Of a stretch of DNA of 51,868 nt, positions 27,279 through 34,487 are shown piece by piece. Each line of letters starts with the position of its first letter. The first letter of the stretch is position 1. The notes under the pieces are model-generated. The model searched no databases. It saw only the letters and a program-made list of their open reading frames with translations, and was not told the origin of the DNA. A program made the translations under genes and the position numbers. This stretch comes from Candidatus Gastranaerophilales bacterium (GTDB lineage: Bacteria; Cyanobacteriota; Vampirovibrionia; Gastranaerophilales; Gastranaerophilaceae): positions 1-51,868 of the forward strand of contig CALUWM010000013.1 in assembly GCA_944324485.1 (NCBI GenBank), in the 5' to 3' direction.

Positions 27279-29321
27279 ATGACAGATGTAGTAGAGAAAA
27301 AATATGCTCAGGTTTTGGTTGATATTAATAAATTGGGAACCAAAACATTTAGCTATTTAATCCCTGATGAACTTAAAGAGGAGATTAAAGTAGGGCAGTC
27401 TGTTTTGGTTCCTTTCGGAAGAAGAAAAGATGGCTTAAAGGCCTATGTGGTTGGATTTTCGAATTATCTTGAAGAAGGAATAAAGGCAAAATATATAACA
27501 GAAATAATAGAAGCAAACCCTCTGTTTTCGCTTGAATATTTAAAACTTTTGGATTGGGTTGCAAATTATTATTATTGCGATATTCAAACTGTATTAAATA
27601 CAGCTTTGCCACAAAAGTTTTTTGAAAAAAATGTTAAAAAATACAGAAAACCAAAAAAAGAAAATGAAATTTATAAAATAGATAAAGAAGAAAAAAGTGA
27701 AAATAATTTATCAGATGAACAAAGAAAAGTATATGAAGAAATAAAAAAAGTTAATGCTAAAACATCTTTATTATATGGGATTACAGGCTCAGGCAAGACG
27801 GAAATATATTTTAAATTAATTGAAGATACAATTAAAAAAAACAAAAATGTTATTTTTTTAGCTCCTGAAATAGCTCTTGTTTCGCAATTAACCATAAGAA
27901 CACTTGAGCGTTTTGGAGCTGATAGTGTGGCTATTTGGCATAGTTCTATAACGGAAGCTGAAAAGTATGAAACTTGGAAAAAATTGAGAAATAATGAAAT
28001 AAAAATTCTTTTTGGTGCAAGAAGTGCTATTTTTGCTCCTATTCGTGATTTAGGGCTTATTATAATCGATGAAGAACACGAATCAAGTTATAAACAGACA
28101 ATGCCGTCTCCAAGATATAATGCAAAGGAAGTAGCTAAAAAATTATGCGAATTGTATGATGCTAAACTTATTTTAGGTTCTGCAACCCCATCGATAGAAA
28201 GTTATTATGAGGCAATTAATACCAATTCTCTTTTTGAGCTTAAAACAAGATATAACTGTGCAAAATTGCCCAAAGTAAGTGTTGTTGATATGAAGGTTGA
28301 AAGGGCTGAAAGGAATTATACTCCTTTTTCAAGAACTCTTATTAATCAAACAAAAGAGGCTGTTGAAAAAGGACATCAGGTTATTTTTCTCATTAATCGC
28401 AGAGGCTTCTCATCTTATACACAGTGTATGGAGTGTGGCGAGGTTCTAATGTGCGAAAAATGTGCAATTCCTTTAATTTTCCATAGTCAAACCAATTCCT
28501 ATAAATGTCATTATTGTAATTTTGAATTAACAGGTGAAATAAAATGTCCTAAATGTAATTCAGAAGCTTTAGAGAATTTTGGCATGGGCTCTCAAAAAGT
28601 TGAGATTATGGCAAAAGAAATTTTTTCTGATTATAGAATAGAAAGGCTTGATTCAGATAGTCTTTCTAAAAAAAATGAACATATAGAAATTTTAAAAAGA
28701 TTTCAAAATGGAGAAATTGATATTTTAATTGGAACTCAAATGATTGCGAAAGGTTTAGACAATAAAAATGTTACTTTAGTTGGTGTAATTAATGCGGATT
28801 TGAGTTTTAATTTGCCTGATTATAGAAGTTCTGAACGTGGATTTTCAATTTTGACTCAAGTTGCAGGACGTTCTGGGCGTGGAGATGATGAAGGTAAGGT
28901 TATTTTTCAAACATATAATTCTTCAAATGTATTTTTAAAAGACGCGCAAAAGCAAGATTACGAAGGTTTTTATGAAAATGAAATTCATTTAAGGGAGTTG
29001 CTTGACTATCCTCCCTTTTCAAATATGATTAGAATAGTTTTGTCGTCTAAAAATGAGTTTAGAGCTGAAAAATCGGCAGCTGAAATTGAATTGCATTTGT
29101 CTGATTATTTAAAAAAACTTTCTTTGGATGAGGCAATTTTAGTTTTGGGTCCGGTTGAATGTGTCTTAAAAAAGATAAGGGAAGAATACAGATATAATAT
29201 AATAATTAAAAATAAGTTGTCTGAAAAAGGGCATAGAGCAATTTTAAGATTTTTAAAAACAATTCATCTTCCTGATGATATTAAAATGGTTGTAGATATT
29301 AATCCTTCGGATATTTTATAA
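27279..29321 (+). CDS. priA: Primosomal replication restart helicase PriA
   Basis: 680 residues. An N-terminal DNA-binding domain (1-~110, YAQVLVDINKLGTKTFSYLIP) is followed by the SF2 helicase with GITGSGKTEIY (Walker A near 165) and I-I-D-E-E-H. The zinc domain between the helicase lobes keeps eight cysteines as CxxC pairs (C-M-E-C, C-E-K-C, C-H-Y-C, C-P-K-C). The second lobe has GTQMIAKGLD and QVAGRSGRG. It reloads the replisome at stalled forks. Two bases separate it from the upstream gene. Confidence 0.95.
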   Translation: MTDVVEKKYAQVLVDINKLGTKTFSYLIPDELKEEIKVGQSVLVPFGRRKDGLKAYVVGFSNYLEEGIKAKYITEIIEANPLFSLEYLKLLDWVANYYYCDIQTVLNTALPQKFFEKNVKKYRKPKKENEIYKIDKEEKSENNLSDEQRKVYEEIKKVNAKTSLLYGITGSGKTEIYFKLIEDTIKKNKNVIFLAPEIALVSQLTIRTLERFGADSVAIWHSSITEAEKYETWKKLRNNEIKILFGARSAIFAPIRDLGLIIIDEEHESSYKQTMPSPRYNAKEVAKKLCELYDAKLILGSATPSIESYYEAINTNSLFELKTRYNCAKLPKVSVVDMKVERAERNYTPFSRTLINQTKEAVEKGHQVIFLINRRGFSSYTQCMECGEVLMCEKCAIPLIFHSQTNSYKCHYCNFELTGEIKCPKCNSEALENFGMGSQKVEIMAKEIFSDYRIERLDSDSLSKKNEHIEILKRFQNGEIDILIGTQMIAKGLDNKNVTLVGVINADLSFNLPDYRSSERGFSILTQVAGRSGRGDDEGKVIFQTYNSSNVFLKDAQKQDYEGFYENEIHLRELLDYPPFSNMIRIVLSSKNEFRAEKSAAEIELHLSDYLKKLSLDEAILVLGPVECVLKKIREEYRYNIIIKNKLSEKGHRAILRFLKTIHLPDDIKMVVDINPSDIL

Positions 29322-29324
29322 AAA

Positions 29325-32300
29325 ATGTTGATTAATGCAAATTCTAATACAAATAGAACTAAATTATTACAAAATAAATATTTAGAACTTTTAAATTCAG
29401 GTATTGAAGCTGAAAAAATACTTGTTATAGTGCAAAATTCTAAAAAGAAAAAAGAATTTATTGATGAAATTAAAGAAAATTCAAACAAAGGGTTTATAGG
29501 CTCTCTTAAGATATATAGTTTTTGGGGATTTATAAGAGAGTATATTCTAGAAAATTGGGTATTGGTTGAAGAAGGTTTAAAGGATAAAAACGCAAAAATT
29601 ACTCCATATTTGTCAGGACTTGAAATTTCTCAATATATTTTTAAAAAAAGCATAGATGAAGTTGATTTTACAGGATATAATTCAAAGACAAGTCTTTTGC
29701 ACCAACTTTTTAGAAGAAACTCTTTAATTAATTTGAATAATCTTTCTAAAGAAGAAATTGATAAAAGAGATAAAATTTTACAGCAAACTTATTCAAGCGA
29801 AGCAAACCAAACGATAAATAAGTATAAAGCTAAAACAATCGATTTAAGAGCGTTTGATTATGTTAGGCAAATTAATATTTTTGAATATTTGTATAAAAAA
29901 CTTGAAAATAAGTTTGAATATATTTTTGTGGATGATGCCGATGAAATTACTCCTTGTGTTTTAGCATATCTTGAACATATTAAACCCAGTGTAAAAGAAT
30001 TTTTTATAGGTTATGACCAATTTGGTTCTTCAAGGTTAGGTTATTTAGGGGCAATTAATGTTGATTTTGAGAAGTTTTTAAATTGTAAAGCTCTAAAGCC
30101 TTTTGAAGATGATGAAAAAACTAAAAATGCACTTAAAATTTTTCATTCGGTTAAAGAAGACAAAAAAATTGATGTTGAAAATATTAACACAAAGACTTTT
30201 TTAAAACGAAACGAAATGCTTGATTGCGTTATTGAGGACATAAAAACTTTGGTTAATAATGGTGTAAAACCGTCTGATATAGCAATTATTACCCCTATTA
30301 ATGATGAATTTCTAAAAACGACACTTGAGAAAACGGGTTTTTGTTTTAATTTTATTTCAAAAAGCGAAAAATTAAATCAAAATAAAATCATAGGTTATCT
30401 TTTAGAATTATTAAAAATTATTATTGATACAAACAATAAGTTTGTGTCCCCGTATATTTTGAAAGGTATTTTGATTGAGATATTAAATATTGAAAAAAAA
30501 GAAGCCCTTTCTTTTGTTCAAGAATATAAAACAGGTTATGAATTTCAAGGTTTGAATTTATTTGATTTAATTAAAAATAAAGATAATGAACAGTTTAGAA
30601 AATTTATTAATATTTATGAAAAATGTAGATTTGAAAAGCTATCTTCTATACTTTTTGAAATTGTTTCAGGTTTTATTCCGTTTCAAAAAGAATTTTCTAA
30701 AGACATAATTAAAATTAATCAGCTTTTAAAACAAATATGCGATTTTGAAGATGTTTTTAAAGACGAGTTTGATAGATTGGAGTTAATTGTTCAACTTGAA
30801 AATACAATAATTTCTGAAAATCCATTGAGTGATTTGGAAATAGATGAAAATTCAATTATTGTTTCATCTGCTCAAAAGATTATTGATTATTCTTATAAAA
30901 CAAAATATCAGTTTTTACTGGATGTTTCTTCAGAAAATTGGATAAGGCAAGATATTGGACCTTTGTATAATTCTTGGGTCATGCAAAAAAAATGGGAAAA
31001 AGACACTTTTGAGCTAGAAGATAATATAAATTTAACAAAAGATAAGATTTCAAGAATGTTATACAAGCTATATCTTCTGACAGATAAATTAACATTATAT
31101 TCAAGTGCGTATGATTATTTAGGTGCGGAGAATTTTTCCGGAATTGATAAATATTTTGAATATAAAAACGAATTTTTGCAAGATACCAAAGCCGAGATTA
31201 AACCTATTGTACCTAGAGATGACCAAAAAGAAGTTTTAAAATATAAAGGCGGGTTAATGTCTGTAAGCGCAACGGCAGGCTCAGGAAAGACAACAATAAT
31301 GCTTCTTTTGGTAGATAAAATTTTATCAGGAGAAATATTGAATGATATAGAGCCTAATAATATTTTTGTTTTAACTTTTATGGAGTCTGCTGCAAGAAAT
31401 TTTAAAGAAAGAATAAAGGCGAAATATCCTAATTTAAAAGAATTGCCAAATATTTCAACAATACATGGGCTTGCACTTAGAATTTTAAAAGAAAATAATA
31501 ATTTTTCAAAAGTTGGTTTGGATTATGATTTTGAAATTTTAGATGAAGTTAAAAGAGTTAATATTTTAACTGAAATAGTTCATAAATTTTTAGGTTCAGT
31601 TGATAAATTGGATTTGTATGATGCTGCTATAAGTTCATATAAAAATGAATTGGTTTTATATGGCGATTTTGAATGTAGCAATAAGCTCTTTTTAAAAATA
31701 TATAATGCGTACGATGAAAAATTAAAGTCTGAAAATTTAATTGATTATGATGATTTATTGCTTTTGAGTTTAAAGTTATTAAGGGAAAATAAAGATATTT
31801 TAGATTATTATGCAGATTTAGCGAAAATAATAATAGAAGATGAAGCACAAGATTCAAGTGCTGTACAACAGAATTTGATTACACTTTTGGGTTCTAAACA
31901 TAAAAATATAATTCGTTGCGGAGATATTAATCAAGCTATAACTTCTACGTTTACAAATTCTGATGTCGAAGGTTTTAAGGATTTTATGAAAAAGTCAAAA
32001 AATGTTGTAATGGATAGATGCCAAAGGTGTGCAACAGGGGTTTTGGATTGTGCAAATGATACGGTTGATTATGCTAAAAAAGAAGAAATAAATGCCTTTA
32101 GCGATTTAATTATGAAACCGGTTGAAGGAAAAAATATAATAGATAGTAAGGCAGTAGGTAGTTTTATCTTTGAAACCGAAAAAGAAGAAAATAATTTTGT
32201 TTTAAAAGAAATACAATCATTATTAAAAAATTCTGATAAACCAATTTCGATTGCAATATTAACAAGAAGTAATTTTGCTATAAACAAATGGGTCAAAATT

Positions 32301-33122
32301 CTTGAAGAGGCTAATATAAGAACATATAAAAATTCTGACAATCTTATAAATAATTTATGTTATAGAATTTCTCTTTTGATATTGGAGTTTATTATAAATC
32401 CATATGAGTTAAGGACTTTAAAAGAAATTGCTAAAGAACTATATGATATCGGTTTTTATGATTTTGATACTTTAAGATATGCAAATTCTTTGTGCGAGCC
32501 TATTTTTTTAAGAGATGATTTTGATGAGCAATTTTGGTGGGATATGAATTATTTTTTATTTAAAAATTATTATTCTATTTATGATTTGGTTTGTGAAATT
32601 GGTGAGTTCTATTTTTCAAAAACTGGCGAAAAAGATAATATACACATGGTTGCTACAATAGCTCAAAAAGTAAAAAATTCTCAAAAAACTTTTGAAGATG
32701 CTGTTTTAAGGCTGAGAGAAATTCAATTTAAAAATAATTTTTCAAATATAAAATTTTTTAAAAGTGAAAATAAGGATAAAAGAAAAAATACTGTCAGTGT
32801 TATGACTATACATAAATCAAAGGGAGATGAGTTTGATTATGTTTTTATTCCTGAATTAACAAAAGATAATTTGTGTTTAAGTATTGATGATTGTAAGTTA
32901 AAAGAAAAATCTACTTTTATTCAAAAAATTAAAAAATATCCCAAGGATGATTTTGAATTGAAAAAAGAAATAACTGAAGAAAATTTCAGGTTGATTTATG
33001 TAGGAATTACAAGAGCTATAAAAAAATTGTATTTAACTGTCTCAAATAATTATAAGTTTTTTGCAAGAGACAAAAAATTTGAAAATTCAGAGTTTTTTGA
33101 GGGGGTATTGTGCAAAAAATAG
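29325..33122 (+). CDS. Double UvrD-like helicase: inactive N-terminal module fused to active AddA/RecB-type module
   Basis: 1265 residues. The C-terminal ~620 residues are an active SF1A helicase: Walker A SATAGSGKTT (near 650), IIIEDEAQD (motif II), IIRCGDINQAI (III), VMTIHKSKGDEFDYVF (V), IYVGITRAIKKLYL (VI). The N-terminal ~600 residues look like a second SF1A fold with a decayed Walker A (LINANSNTNRTKLL), a motif Ia-like E-K-I-L-V-I-V-Q-N, and FVDDADEI near residue 200 in the motif II position. This matches an AddB/RecC-like inactive partner joined to an AddA/RecB-like motor. No nuclease motif is seen in it; the nuclease follows as a separate overlapping gene. End resection in recombination is the likely role. 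Confidence 0.75.
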   Translation: MLINANSNTNRTKLLQNKYLELLNSGIEAEKILVIVQNSKKKKEFIDEIKENSNKGFIGSLKIYSFWGFIREYILENWVLVEEGLKDKNAKITPYLSGLEISQYIFKKSIDEVDFTGYNSKTSLLHQLFRRNSLINLNNLSKEEIDKRDKILQQTYSSEANQTINKYKAKTIDLRAFDYVRQINIFEYLYKKLENKFEYIFVDDADEITPCVLAYLEHIKPSVKEFFIGYDQFGSSRLGYLGAINVDFEKFLNCKALKPFEDDEKTKNALKIFHSVKEDKKIDVENINTKTFLKRNEMLDCVIEDIKTLVNNGVKPSDIAIITPINDEFLKTTLEKTGFCFNFISKSEKLNQNKIIGYLLELLKIIIDTNNKFVSPYILKGILIEILNIEKKEALSFVQEYKTGYEFQGLNLFDLIKNKDNEQFRKFINIYEKCRFEKLSSILFEIVSGFIPFQKEFSKDIIKINQLLKQICDFEDVFKDEFDRLELIVQLENTIISENPLSDLEIDENSIIVSSAQKIIDYSYKTKYQFLLDVSSENWIRQDIGPLYNSWVMQKKWEKDTFELEDNINLTKDKISRMLYKLYLLTDKLTLYSSAYDYLGAENFSGIDKYFEYKNEFLQDTKAEIKPIVPRDDQKEVLKYKGGLMSVSATAGSGKTTIMLLLVDKILSGEILNDIEPNNIFVLTFMESAARNFKERIKAKYPNLKELPNISTIHGLALRILKENNNFSKVGLDYDFEILDEVKRVNILTEIVHKFLGSVDKLDLYDAAISSYKNELVLYGDFECSNKLFLKIYNAYDEKLKSENLIDYDDLLLLSLKLLRENKDILDYYADLAKIIIEDEAQDSSAVQQNLITLLGSKHKNIIRCGDINQAITSTFTNSDVEGFKDFMKKSKNVVMDRCQRCATGVLDCANDTVDYAKKEEINAFSDLIMKPVEGKNIIDSKAVGSFIFETEKEENNFVLKEIQSLLKNSDKPISIAILTRSNFAINKWVKILEEANIRTYKNSDNLINNLCYRISLLILEFIINPYELRTLKEIAKELYDIGFYDFDTLRYANSLCEPIFLRDDFDEQFWWDMNYFLFKNYYSIYDLVCEIGEFYFSKTGEKDNIHMVATIAQKVKNSQKTFEDAVLRLREIQFKNNFSNIKFFKSENKDKRKNTVSVMTIHKSKGDEFDYVFIPELTKDNLCLSIDDCKLKEKSTFIQKIKKYPKDDFELKKEITEENFRLIYVGITRAIKKLYLTVSNNYKFFARDKKFENSEFFEGVLCKK

Positions 33123-33739
33123 ATACTTTTAGTGCAAATTCACTTAAAATTTTGGATAAAAGTTTTGTAGAATTTAAAAATAAATATATTTACAATCTTT
33201 CAATTTATAAAAAAGATAAAAGGACTCAAACAGGTCAAAAATTTCATGGGTTGATTTGTTTTTATATAAGAGGTTTTGATGTTTCGAGATTGCTTATGGA
33301 TTTGAGTTCGGATGAATTAATTTGTTGGCAAAAACTTAAAGAGAAATTAAAATTAATTAAAAGAAATTTTATTAAAACAGAATATTCTTTTTTAATTAAA
33401 GATGAGTTAAATAATATTCCTTATTATCTTACGGGGCGTTTTGACGGAATTTATAAAGATAATGATTTTTATGTGATTTATGATTGGAAAACTTCTAATT
33501 TTCCTAAAAATCCTGCCAATGACTTGCAAAGCATAGTGTATCTATATGCTTTAAGTAAAATTTATAAAACTGATAAAATTAAAATGAGATATCTTTCGAT
33601 TGAAAAACTACAAACATTTGATGTAAACTTTGTTTCATCTGAAAAATACAAAGAAATAATAGATGAAATAATTTTAAAATTACCTTGGTTTAATTTTTCT
33701 TTAAATAGTGGCTTAGAGTCTCAAGAGTTGAGTTTTTGA
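33110..33739 (+). CDS. RecB-family PD-(D/E)XK nuclease
   Basis: 209 residues, a stand-alone nuclease domain. The active site is readable: the Asp of TGRFDGIYKD, then YDWKTSN (D-x-K) 16 residues on, and QSIVYLYAL (the Q-x-x-x-Y motif of RecB/AddA nucleases). It lacks the four-Cys iron-sulfur cluster of AddB. It overlaps the helicase gene by 13 bases, so the two are translated together and probably form one complex. Its 3' end overlaps the convergent methyltransferase gene by 50 bases. Confidence 0.8.
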   Translation: MQKIDTFSANSLKILDKSFVEFKNKYIYNLSIYKKDKRTQTGQKFHGLICFYIRGFDVSRLLMDLSSDELICWQKLKEKLKLIKRNFIKTEYSFLIKDELNNIPYYLTGRFDGIYKDNDFYVIYDWKTSNFPKNPANDLQSIVYLYALSKIYKTDKIKMRYLSIEKLQTFDVNFVSSEKYKEIIDEIILKLPWFNFSLNSGLESQELSF

Positions 33740-34487
33740 TTTCAAAATTTCTAAAATCAACTATTGATTCATGAGTCAGGTTGAGATTTTTATCTTTATA
33801 TGTGATAGCTGATTTTGTATTTAACATTCCTAATTCAAAATTGTTTAGTGGATTTTGAATTAAATTTGGGTTAAAAGACGCATTTGTTCCTATTGTTCTT
33901 TTATCTTTAATGGTTTTTCCTATTTTTATATCTGTTTTAAAAAGCGCGTTTAAGACAGGTTTTGAATGGTTATATGTGCAATAAATTCCATTTTTATCGA
34001 GTTTTTTTATTATTTCTGAGATTAAATCTTCGCTCCAGAGTTCTGATTGTTTGTGCGGAGCAAAACCATCATGAAAAATTATATCGTATTTCGTGTTTAG
34101 TTTTTTAATGACTTTTCTTACATCGTCAAAGTAGAAATTTATTAAATCTGATTTGATTAGATTTTTTTCTATAATTTTATTTATTTTTTTTGATGATTTA
34201 TAGTCAAATTGAAAAGATTTTTTTGCAAGTTCTGCGTCAATTTCAATACAATCAATGACTTCTATTGTGTTGAAATTTTCAATCGCACATTTTGTATTGT
34301 AGCCTATTCCATAGCATATATCGAGGATTTTTAATGGTTTTTTATTTAAGATTAAACATGGGGCTATGAATTTTTCATATGCTTCTGTAATAGCACCTTC
34401 TCTGGAATGATATACTTCATCTAAATCTTTGTTATATAGTCCGATTGAGCCATCTTTTGTTATTATTTTTTCAATATTTTTTTTCAT
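33690..34487 (-). CDS. MnmC-like methyltransferase (DUF752)
   Basis: 265 residues. A Rossmann methyltransferase with ILDICYGIGYNTK (SAM loop near residue 53), an acidic C-I-E-I-D after strand 2, and IIFHDGFAPHKQSELW, the DGFaPxxxPeLW hallmark of the MnmC methyltransferase domain. MnmC(m) methylates the wobble uridine of certain tRNAs to give mnm5(s2)U. The FAD oxidase half of E. coli MnmC is absent, as in many lineages. TAAAAT (34495-34500) ends seven bases before the ATG with no ribosome binding site, so a leaderless start is likely. Confidence 0.8.
   Translation of the reverse strand: MKKNIEKIITKDGSIGLYNKDLDEVYHSREGAITEAYEKFIAPCLILNKKPLKILDICYGIGYNTKCAIENFNTIEVIDCIEIDAELAKKSFQFDYKSSKKINKIIEKNLIKSDLINFYFDDVRKVIKKLNTKYDIIFHDGFAPHKQSELWSEDLISEIIKKLDKNGIYCTYNHSKPVLNALFKTDIKIGKTIKDKRTIGTNASFNPNLIQNPLNNFELGMLNTKSAITYKDKNLNLTHESIVDFRNFEIKNSTLETLSHYLKKN

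Follow-up and report, generated by a model that had tools for sequence, protein, structure and literature searches.

A fused helicase gene and its overlapping nuclease gene

The DNA analysed here (the window) is the 51,868-nt stretch of contig CALUWM010000013.1 (GenBank assembly GCA_944324485.1) from a Candidatus Gastranaerophilales bacterium, whose genome measures 1.72 Mb and is 99.6% complete. Its relatives in a named collection belong to the same Candidatus Gastranaerophilales, which are non-photosynthetic Cyanobacteriota, most of them of gut origin. Two adjoining genes of the window were studied. An ATG-initiated gene (29325..33122, +), delimited by its open reading frame (ORF), Pfam matches and orthologues, encodes a 1265-aa protein in which an apparently dead superfamily 1A (SF1A) helicase module is fused to an active UvrD-like motor. 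A GTG-initiated gene (33110..33739, +) encodes P0002, a stand-alone PD-(D/E)XK (RecB-type) nuclease of 209 aa that was recognised by PF12705 and by alignment. Both reading frames overlap by 13 nt, and the sequence GAGGGGG (33099..33105, +), within the 3′ end of the fused gene, probably serves the nuclease gene as its ribosome-binding site. The priA gene (27279..29321, +), identified by Pfam, lies 3 nt upstream of the fused gene. A first-pass annotation, made from the letters alone, had proposed two SF1A-like modules, the first one with a decayed Walker A and an altered motif II and the second one complete, together with a separate 209-residue nuclease encoded by an overlapping gene, and all of these features were recovered in our analyses.

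The C-terminal half of the fused protein (C-half; residues 619-1265; 31179..33119, +) is a complete SF1A motor according to PF00580, UvrD_C and its motifs. Specifically, residues 626-1265 matched PF00580 with E=1.8e-43, in addition to UvrD_C, and the alignment located the Walker A (ATAGSGKT, residues 649-656; 31269..31292, +), motif II (EDEAQD, residues 838-843; 31836..31853, +) and motif VI (RLIYVGITRA, residues 1222-1231; 32988..33017, +). Motifs I, II, III and VI were intact in 95 out of 95 fused proteins.

The N-terminal half (N-half; residues 1-618; 29325..31178, +) presented a degenerate version of the SF1A fold, identified by a weak PF00580 match, AlphaFold2 and Foldseek. When residues 1-625 were scanned alone, the PF00580 (UvrD-helicase) match had E=3.8e-5, marginally above the Pfam gathering score. 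Alignment revealed that the Walker A had decayed to INANSNTNRT (residues 3-12; 29331..29360, +), where relatives carry IEGPxxSGKT, and that motif II had changed to VDDADE (residues 202-207; 29928..29945, +), with D206 and E207 being invariant. Nearly all of the 95 fused proteins carried DDxDE at motif II, not DExxD, and the motif VI arginine was substituted across the same set. Judging from these motifs, the N-half is very probably inactive as a motor throughout the family. The Walker A pattern G-x4-GK[ST] was still present in 10 of the 95 fused proteins and in 9 out of 10 separate N-half proteins from cyanobacteria (see below), indicating that its decay was a later loss.

An AlphaFold2 model of residues 1-622, built with 67 relatives, reached a predicted local distance difference test score (pLDDT) of 89.1 and a predicted TM-score (pTM) of 0.86. 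In Foldseek, this model matched AdnB (TMq 0.68), AddB (0.64) and UvrD (0.60; E 2.6e-17), as well as AddA, RecB and RecC. VIA-align yielded Z 28.4 for UvrD (8.9 Å), 23.1 for AdnB (4.3 Å over 570 residues) and 21.4 for AddB (5.5 Å over 567 residues), with the alignment spanning residues 1-618. A full SF1A fold of the N-half is thus clear in the predicted structure, in agreement with the SF1 fold that the first-pass annotation had expected for the first ~600 residues. It is structure prediction that reveals this fold, since a search of PDB sequences with the N-half profile gave no significant chain and no AddB, the best match being Rep (E 0.32). The N-half would then play the role of an AddB/RecC-like scaffold. 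For a near-full-length relative (1200 residues of locus L091), the predicted structure had a pLDDT of 85.1 and a pTM of 0.77; the latter value suggests, with moderate confidence, that the two modules are packed together and do not hang loose.

Regarding the nuclease, P0002 matched PF12705 (PDDEXK_1) with E=2.2e-10 and 41.3 bits, against a gathering score of 22. Its active site was complete (H46, D112, D125-W-K127, Q140 and Y144) and followed the D...DxK...QxxxY pattern. Residues H46, D112, D125, K127, Q140 and Y144 were invariant in an alignment of 18 relatives, as was the catalytic core from D112 to D125-W-K127 (33443..33490, +), which contains the G-R-x-D and D-x-K motifs. None of the four iron-sulfur (Fe-S) cysteines that frame such a nuclease was found in P0002. 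In contrast, 41 out of 88 orthologous nucleases, from other families and from cyanobacteria, presented a single cysteine close to the N-terminus and a CxxCx4-7C pattern close to the C-terminus, the four-cysteine arrangement of AddB and Cas4. The first-pass annotation was therefore right about the missing AddB cysteines in P0002, but since orthologues elsewhere keep them, their absence is a secondary loss in the genus of the window. Weak Cas4 matches to the nuclease were obtained with PADLOC and NCBIfam, and the nuclease profile also matched AdnB (E 4e-5). The PDB entries 9IAC and 9IAB were considered as cyanobacterial nuclease orthologues and dropped, as a cyanobacterial orthologue gave no match to them.

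Conservation of the gene pair and its counterparts in other Cyanobacteriota

A search among relatives recovered full-length orthologues from almost every genome of the genus and the family and from most of the order. In another collection, the fusion was present in 80 out of 80 Gastranaerophilales loci; the nuclease gene adjoined the fused gene in 74 of them, overlapping it in 67 of these, and priA was located directly upstream in 31. The nuclease was encoded elsewhere in the genome in the 10 out of 10 non-adjacent cases of the relatives sample. The fused two-module layout is real, far beyond chance, and the pair is conserved, a point that the first-pass annotation had left to be checked. The fused gene is a vertical, near-universal core gene of the order, linked to priA and polA and not to defence genes. 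At the thresholds used, both the N-half and the nuclease were absent from three genomes of the family (G169, G327 and G332) and from all eight sampled genomes of f9, within the class. Replacement by AddAB where the system is missing was considered and not borne out, as most f9 genomes are without any PDDEXK_1 protein and G169, G327, G332, G406 and G057 carry a protein of the single-chain UvrD-PDDEXK type. In one relative (locus L020, genome G008), the fused-gene match contained one in-frame TGA, which may reflect an assembly error or local decay.

Counterparts of the three parts were also found in the wider Cyanobacteriota. The N-half profile detected separate proteins of 670-750 residues in photosynthetic cyanobacteria (E as low as 1e-21 at genome level), for which no Pfam family exceeded the cut-off in the three out of three checked. 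The nuclease profile detected stand-alone PDDEXK_1 proteins of 250-300 residues in many of the same genomes, while the C-half profile detected a second UvrD (UvrD2) of 736-785 residues, distinct from PcrA. Genome G069 carried an unfused operon encoding N (673 aa), C (712 aa) and nuclease (280 aa) proteins in the same order as in the window, and in genome G383, from another family of the same class, the nuclease gene came after a fused gene (1451 aa). Given the G069 operon and the separate cyanobacterial N, UvrD2 and nuclease genes, the fusion constitutes a Rosetta-stone link. The simplest history that these sequences suggest would be three separate genes first, followed by fusion of the first two. 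In a phylogenetic tree, the C-halves, the operon C proteins and the cyanobacterial UvrD2 were all placed outside the PcrA clade (support 99/98); G383 was on a very long branch with less than half of the columns filled, was probably miscut and its position was not used. The genome of the window encodes its own PcrA (L001) besides the fused protein. Novelty of the layout, which the first-pass annotation had suggested, needs to be reworded, as the layout corresponds, in fused form, to a three-gene set of the Cyanobacteriota that was found once as an operon. Literature searches on repair helicases of Gastranaerophilales/Melainabacteria yielded nothing on the fused gene and no description of it was found, most subscription journals being outside the search.

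Relation to known end-processing systems

We next consider the other end-processing genes of the window's genome. RecC (PF04257) gave no match in it, the E. coli control being positive, AddB was not found and no protein reached the AddA or RecB cut-offs. The PDDEXK_1 domain was detected in just two proteins, P0002 and a 1012-aa single-chain UvrD plus PD-(D/E)XK protein (L290:5101-8139; contig C2 of G000, the window's genome) with a C-terminal CxxCx5C. The first 818 residues of the latter scored far below the AddA and RecB cut-offs, and no AddB-like gene lay alongside. Hence, a genome free of other addAB or recBCD genes, on which the first-pass annotation had made its proposal depend, was confirmed as regards AddB, RecC and canonical AddA or RecB, but one single-chain UvrD-PDDEXK protein has to be added. 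Similar single-chain proteins of ~1010-1036 aa were observed in G169, G327, G332, G421, G238, G039, G336 and G057, and G406 also carries a protein of this type. A two-gene AddAB/AdnAB-like pair, consisting of a 931-972-aa protein with a cysteine-rich nuclease-like end and an adjoining 849-1125-aa UvrD, was observed in G251, G205 and G040 (L324:1943-8045, L325:1765-7852 and L326:1974-7389, respectively) and was not found in the window's genome.

When compared to AddAB of the Bacillus subtilis type (PDB 3U4Q, 4CEJ), which resects dsDNA ends in an ATP-dependent and Chi-regulated manner, the system shares a dead SF1A-fold scaffold (deadness being read here from motifs), an active SF1A motor and a RecB-type nuclease; the fold of its N-half is AddB-like and the nucleases of relatives show the Fe-S four-cysteine pattern. 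It differs in that both SF1A modules form one chain, the nuclease is a separate polypeptide and the Fe-S cysteines were lost in the genus, P0002 being devoid of the AddB cluster. AddA carries its motor and C-terminal nuclease in one chain, whereas the C-half stops ~35 aa after motif VI, the nuclease is encoded by a separate ORF and the score against the NCBIfam AddA equivalog was 97-101 bits for a cut-off of 707.65. Likewise, AddB is an inactive module with its own C-terminal nuclease, whereas the N-half continues straight into the C-half with no intervening nuclease. The mycobacterial AdnAB (PDB 6PPR, 9NP6) is also built from UvrD-like modules, and AdnB gave the highest Foldseek TM-score of the N-half, but AdnA and AdnB each bear a C-terminal nuclease, which neither module does here. 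RecBCD contains a dead-SF1 scaffold (RecC), an SF1A motor and the RecB nuclease; unlike here, that nuclease is covalently attached, and neither a RecC by sequence nor a RecD-like chain was present at the locus.

Single components also resemble simpler enzymes. The C-half shares its motor motifs and best sequence score with PcrA/UvrD/Rep, but it is fused to a dead module and falls in a separate clade, apart from the PcrA of the same genomes. Stand-alone PD-(D/E)XK or Cas4-like nucleases (e.g. PDB 9IAC, 9IAB) have the same RecB-type active site, and relatives of P0002 have Cas4-like cysteines, but here the nuclease is encoded with a fused helicase, mostly overlapping it. As for Gabija, the GajB matches of PADLOC did not extend beyond the generic UvrD motor, and a PD-(D/E)XK nuclease is the partner observed at this locus. 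By the defining layouts, the system does not belong to AddAB, RecBCD or AdnAB. Thus, from the AddAB/RecBCD-type machine proposed in the first-pass annotation, the one-chain scaffold and motor with a separate nuclease proved real and conserved, while the assignment to those families did not hold.

A putative AddAB-like machine and its alternatives

We favour, with some reserve, the reading that this gene pair specifies a machine for DNA end processing that is AddAB-like and has a 2+1 layout. This is because the N-half is degenerate and the C-half intact throughout the fused relatives, the N-half has an SF1A fold, the nuclease gene adjoins or overlaps the fused gene and is lost together with the N-half, priA is linked and the genome has no AddB or RecC. 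Such a machine would probably work like AddAB. By analogy, the C-half would act as an ATP-driven 3′-to-5′ SF1A motor and unwind the DNA starting at an end, while the dead N-half would act as scaffold and strand guide, splitting or guiding the other strand as AddB and RecC do. The separate RecB-type nuclease would dock on the helicase body and cut the emerging strand or strands, leaving a 3′ tail for RecA, and the neighbouring PriA would restart replication afterwards. What the data show directly is the gene anatomy, the folds, the motif states, conservation, linkage, co-occurrence with its exceptions and the ancestral set of three genes; we infer from the model that the proteins associate physically, with which polarity they move, that they resect ends and load RecA, and that they are connected to PriA-dependent restart. 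Genomes that encode AddAB or RecBCD also have PriA, except for one in which RecA is missing as well (PMC1193525).

Several observations weigh against this reading. AddAB has two nuclease domains and only one nuclease gene exists here, the fold of the N-half is no nearer to AddB specifically than to UvrD or AdnB in the model (VIA Z 21 vs 28 and 23) and the top sequence score of the C-half corresponded to PcrA/Rep, not AddA. The 1012-aa single-chain protein could share the role or even be the main resecting enzyme. Moreover, in the genera g39 (eight genomes with no match and one with a weak match) and g36 the fused protein persists but no nuclease of the P0002 family could be detected, and the g39 loci that were read had nothing nuclease-like downstream of the fused gene. 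A strict co-occurrence of the nuclease and the fused protein was rejected on account of these exceptions. In the g39 loci L318-L321 (genomes G238, G345, G421 and G275), the fused helicase was kept and its cognate nuclease gene apparently lost; PDDEXK_1 was found in G238, G421 and G275 only within the single-chain UvrD-PDDEXK protein.

The genes might also descend from a true AddAB whose helicase parts were fused and whose AddB Fe-S nuclease was split off. The four-cysteine AddB/Cas4 pattern in the stand-alone nuclease of relatives and the superposition of the N-half on AddB would fit such a descent. We consider it unlikely, as the AddA and RecB family scores were far under their cut-offs, the N-half profile did not retrieve any AddB chain in a sequence search of the PDB, and the cyanobacterial set already comprises three proteins with no intact AddA/AddB ancestor seen. 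Alternatively, the pair could form a DNA-degrading barrier against incoming plasmid, phage or transforming DNA, in which the nuclease would be a Cas4-like defence enzyme fed by the helicase. RecBCD and AddAB degrade foreign DNA too, and the weak Cas4 matches point in the same direction. Furthermore, in a transposon screen of S. elongatus, RSF1010 maintenance and natural transformation improved when uvrD (paralogous to PcrA), a cas4 gene or Synpcc7942_0992, described as PD-(D/E)XK endonuclease-like, was lost (PMC10653904). The C-half and the nuclease may have their orthologues in this uvrD and in Synpcc7942_0992, respectively. A barrier nevertheless seems rather improbable for a vertical, near-universal core gene that is linked to priA and polA, and not to defence genes, and whose GajB matches are limited to the generic motor.

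The closeness of the C-half to PcrA/Rep, the adjacency of priA in 31 out of 80 loci and the persistence of the helicase without the nuclease in g39 and g36 would also be expected from an ordinary second UvrD/PcrA-type helicase, devoted to fork or R-loop remodelling or to restart with PriA, that had acquired a dead N-module, the nuclease being a frequent neighbour with its own job. This explanation is quite doubtful, given that the C-half, the G069 operon protein and the cyanobacterial UvrD2 are outside the 99/98 PcrA clade, that the nuclease overlaps and co-occurs with the fused gene across families and was co-lost in several lineages, and that cyanobacteria keep the N-half proteins as separate genes.

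Returning to an AddAB-like machine, we see even chances that Cyanobacteriota own a fourth end-resection architecture beside RecBCD, AddAB and AdnAB. Its components would be a dead SF1A scaffold, a dedicated UvrD-like motor and, as a protein of its own, an Fe-S nuclease of the RecB type. Photosynthetic cyanobacteria would encode them in three scattered genes, the scaffold there being an unannotated protein, and Gastranaerophilales as the fusion plus the nuclease gene. The N, UvrD2 and nuclease proteins of photosynthetic cyanobacteria would then act together. If true, this architecture would close the gap in RecBCD/AddAB that has been reported for model cyanobacteria, and the interest would be phylum-wide should the separate genes prove to encode one machine. 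The fused protein points to three candidate partners, including the N-half protein of 670-750 aa without family assignment above the cut-off in the genomes checked, and the question can now be addressed by deleting these genes in cyanobacteria that are amenable to genetics. It would also provide a natural case of a detachable nuclease, in which the Fe-S cysteines were lost and the nuclease itself has apparently gone altogether in two genera.

Finally, the 3′ end of the nuclease gene overlaps by 50 nt a convergent gene for a Methyltransf_30-type methyltransferase of 265 aa (window 33690-34487, -), and close relatives show a similar overlap between genes on opposite strands.

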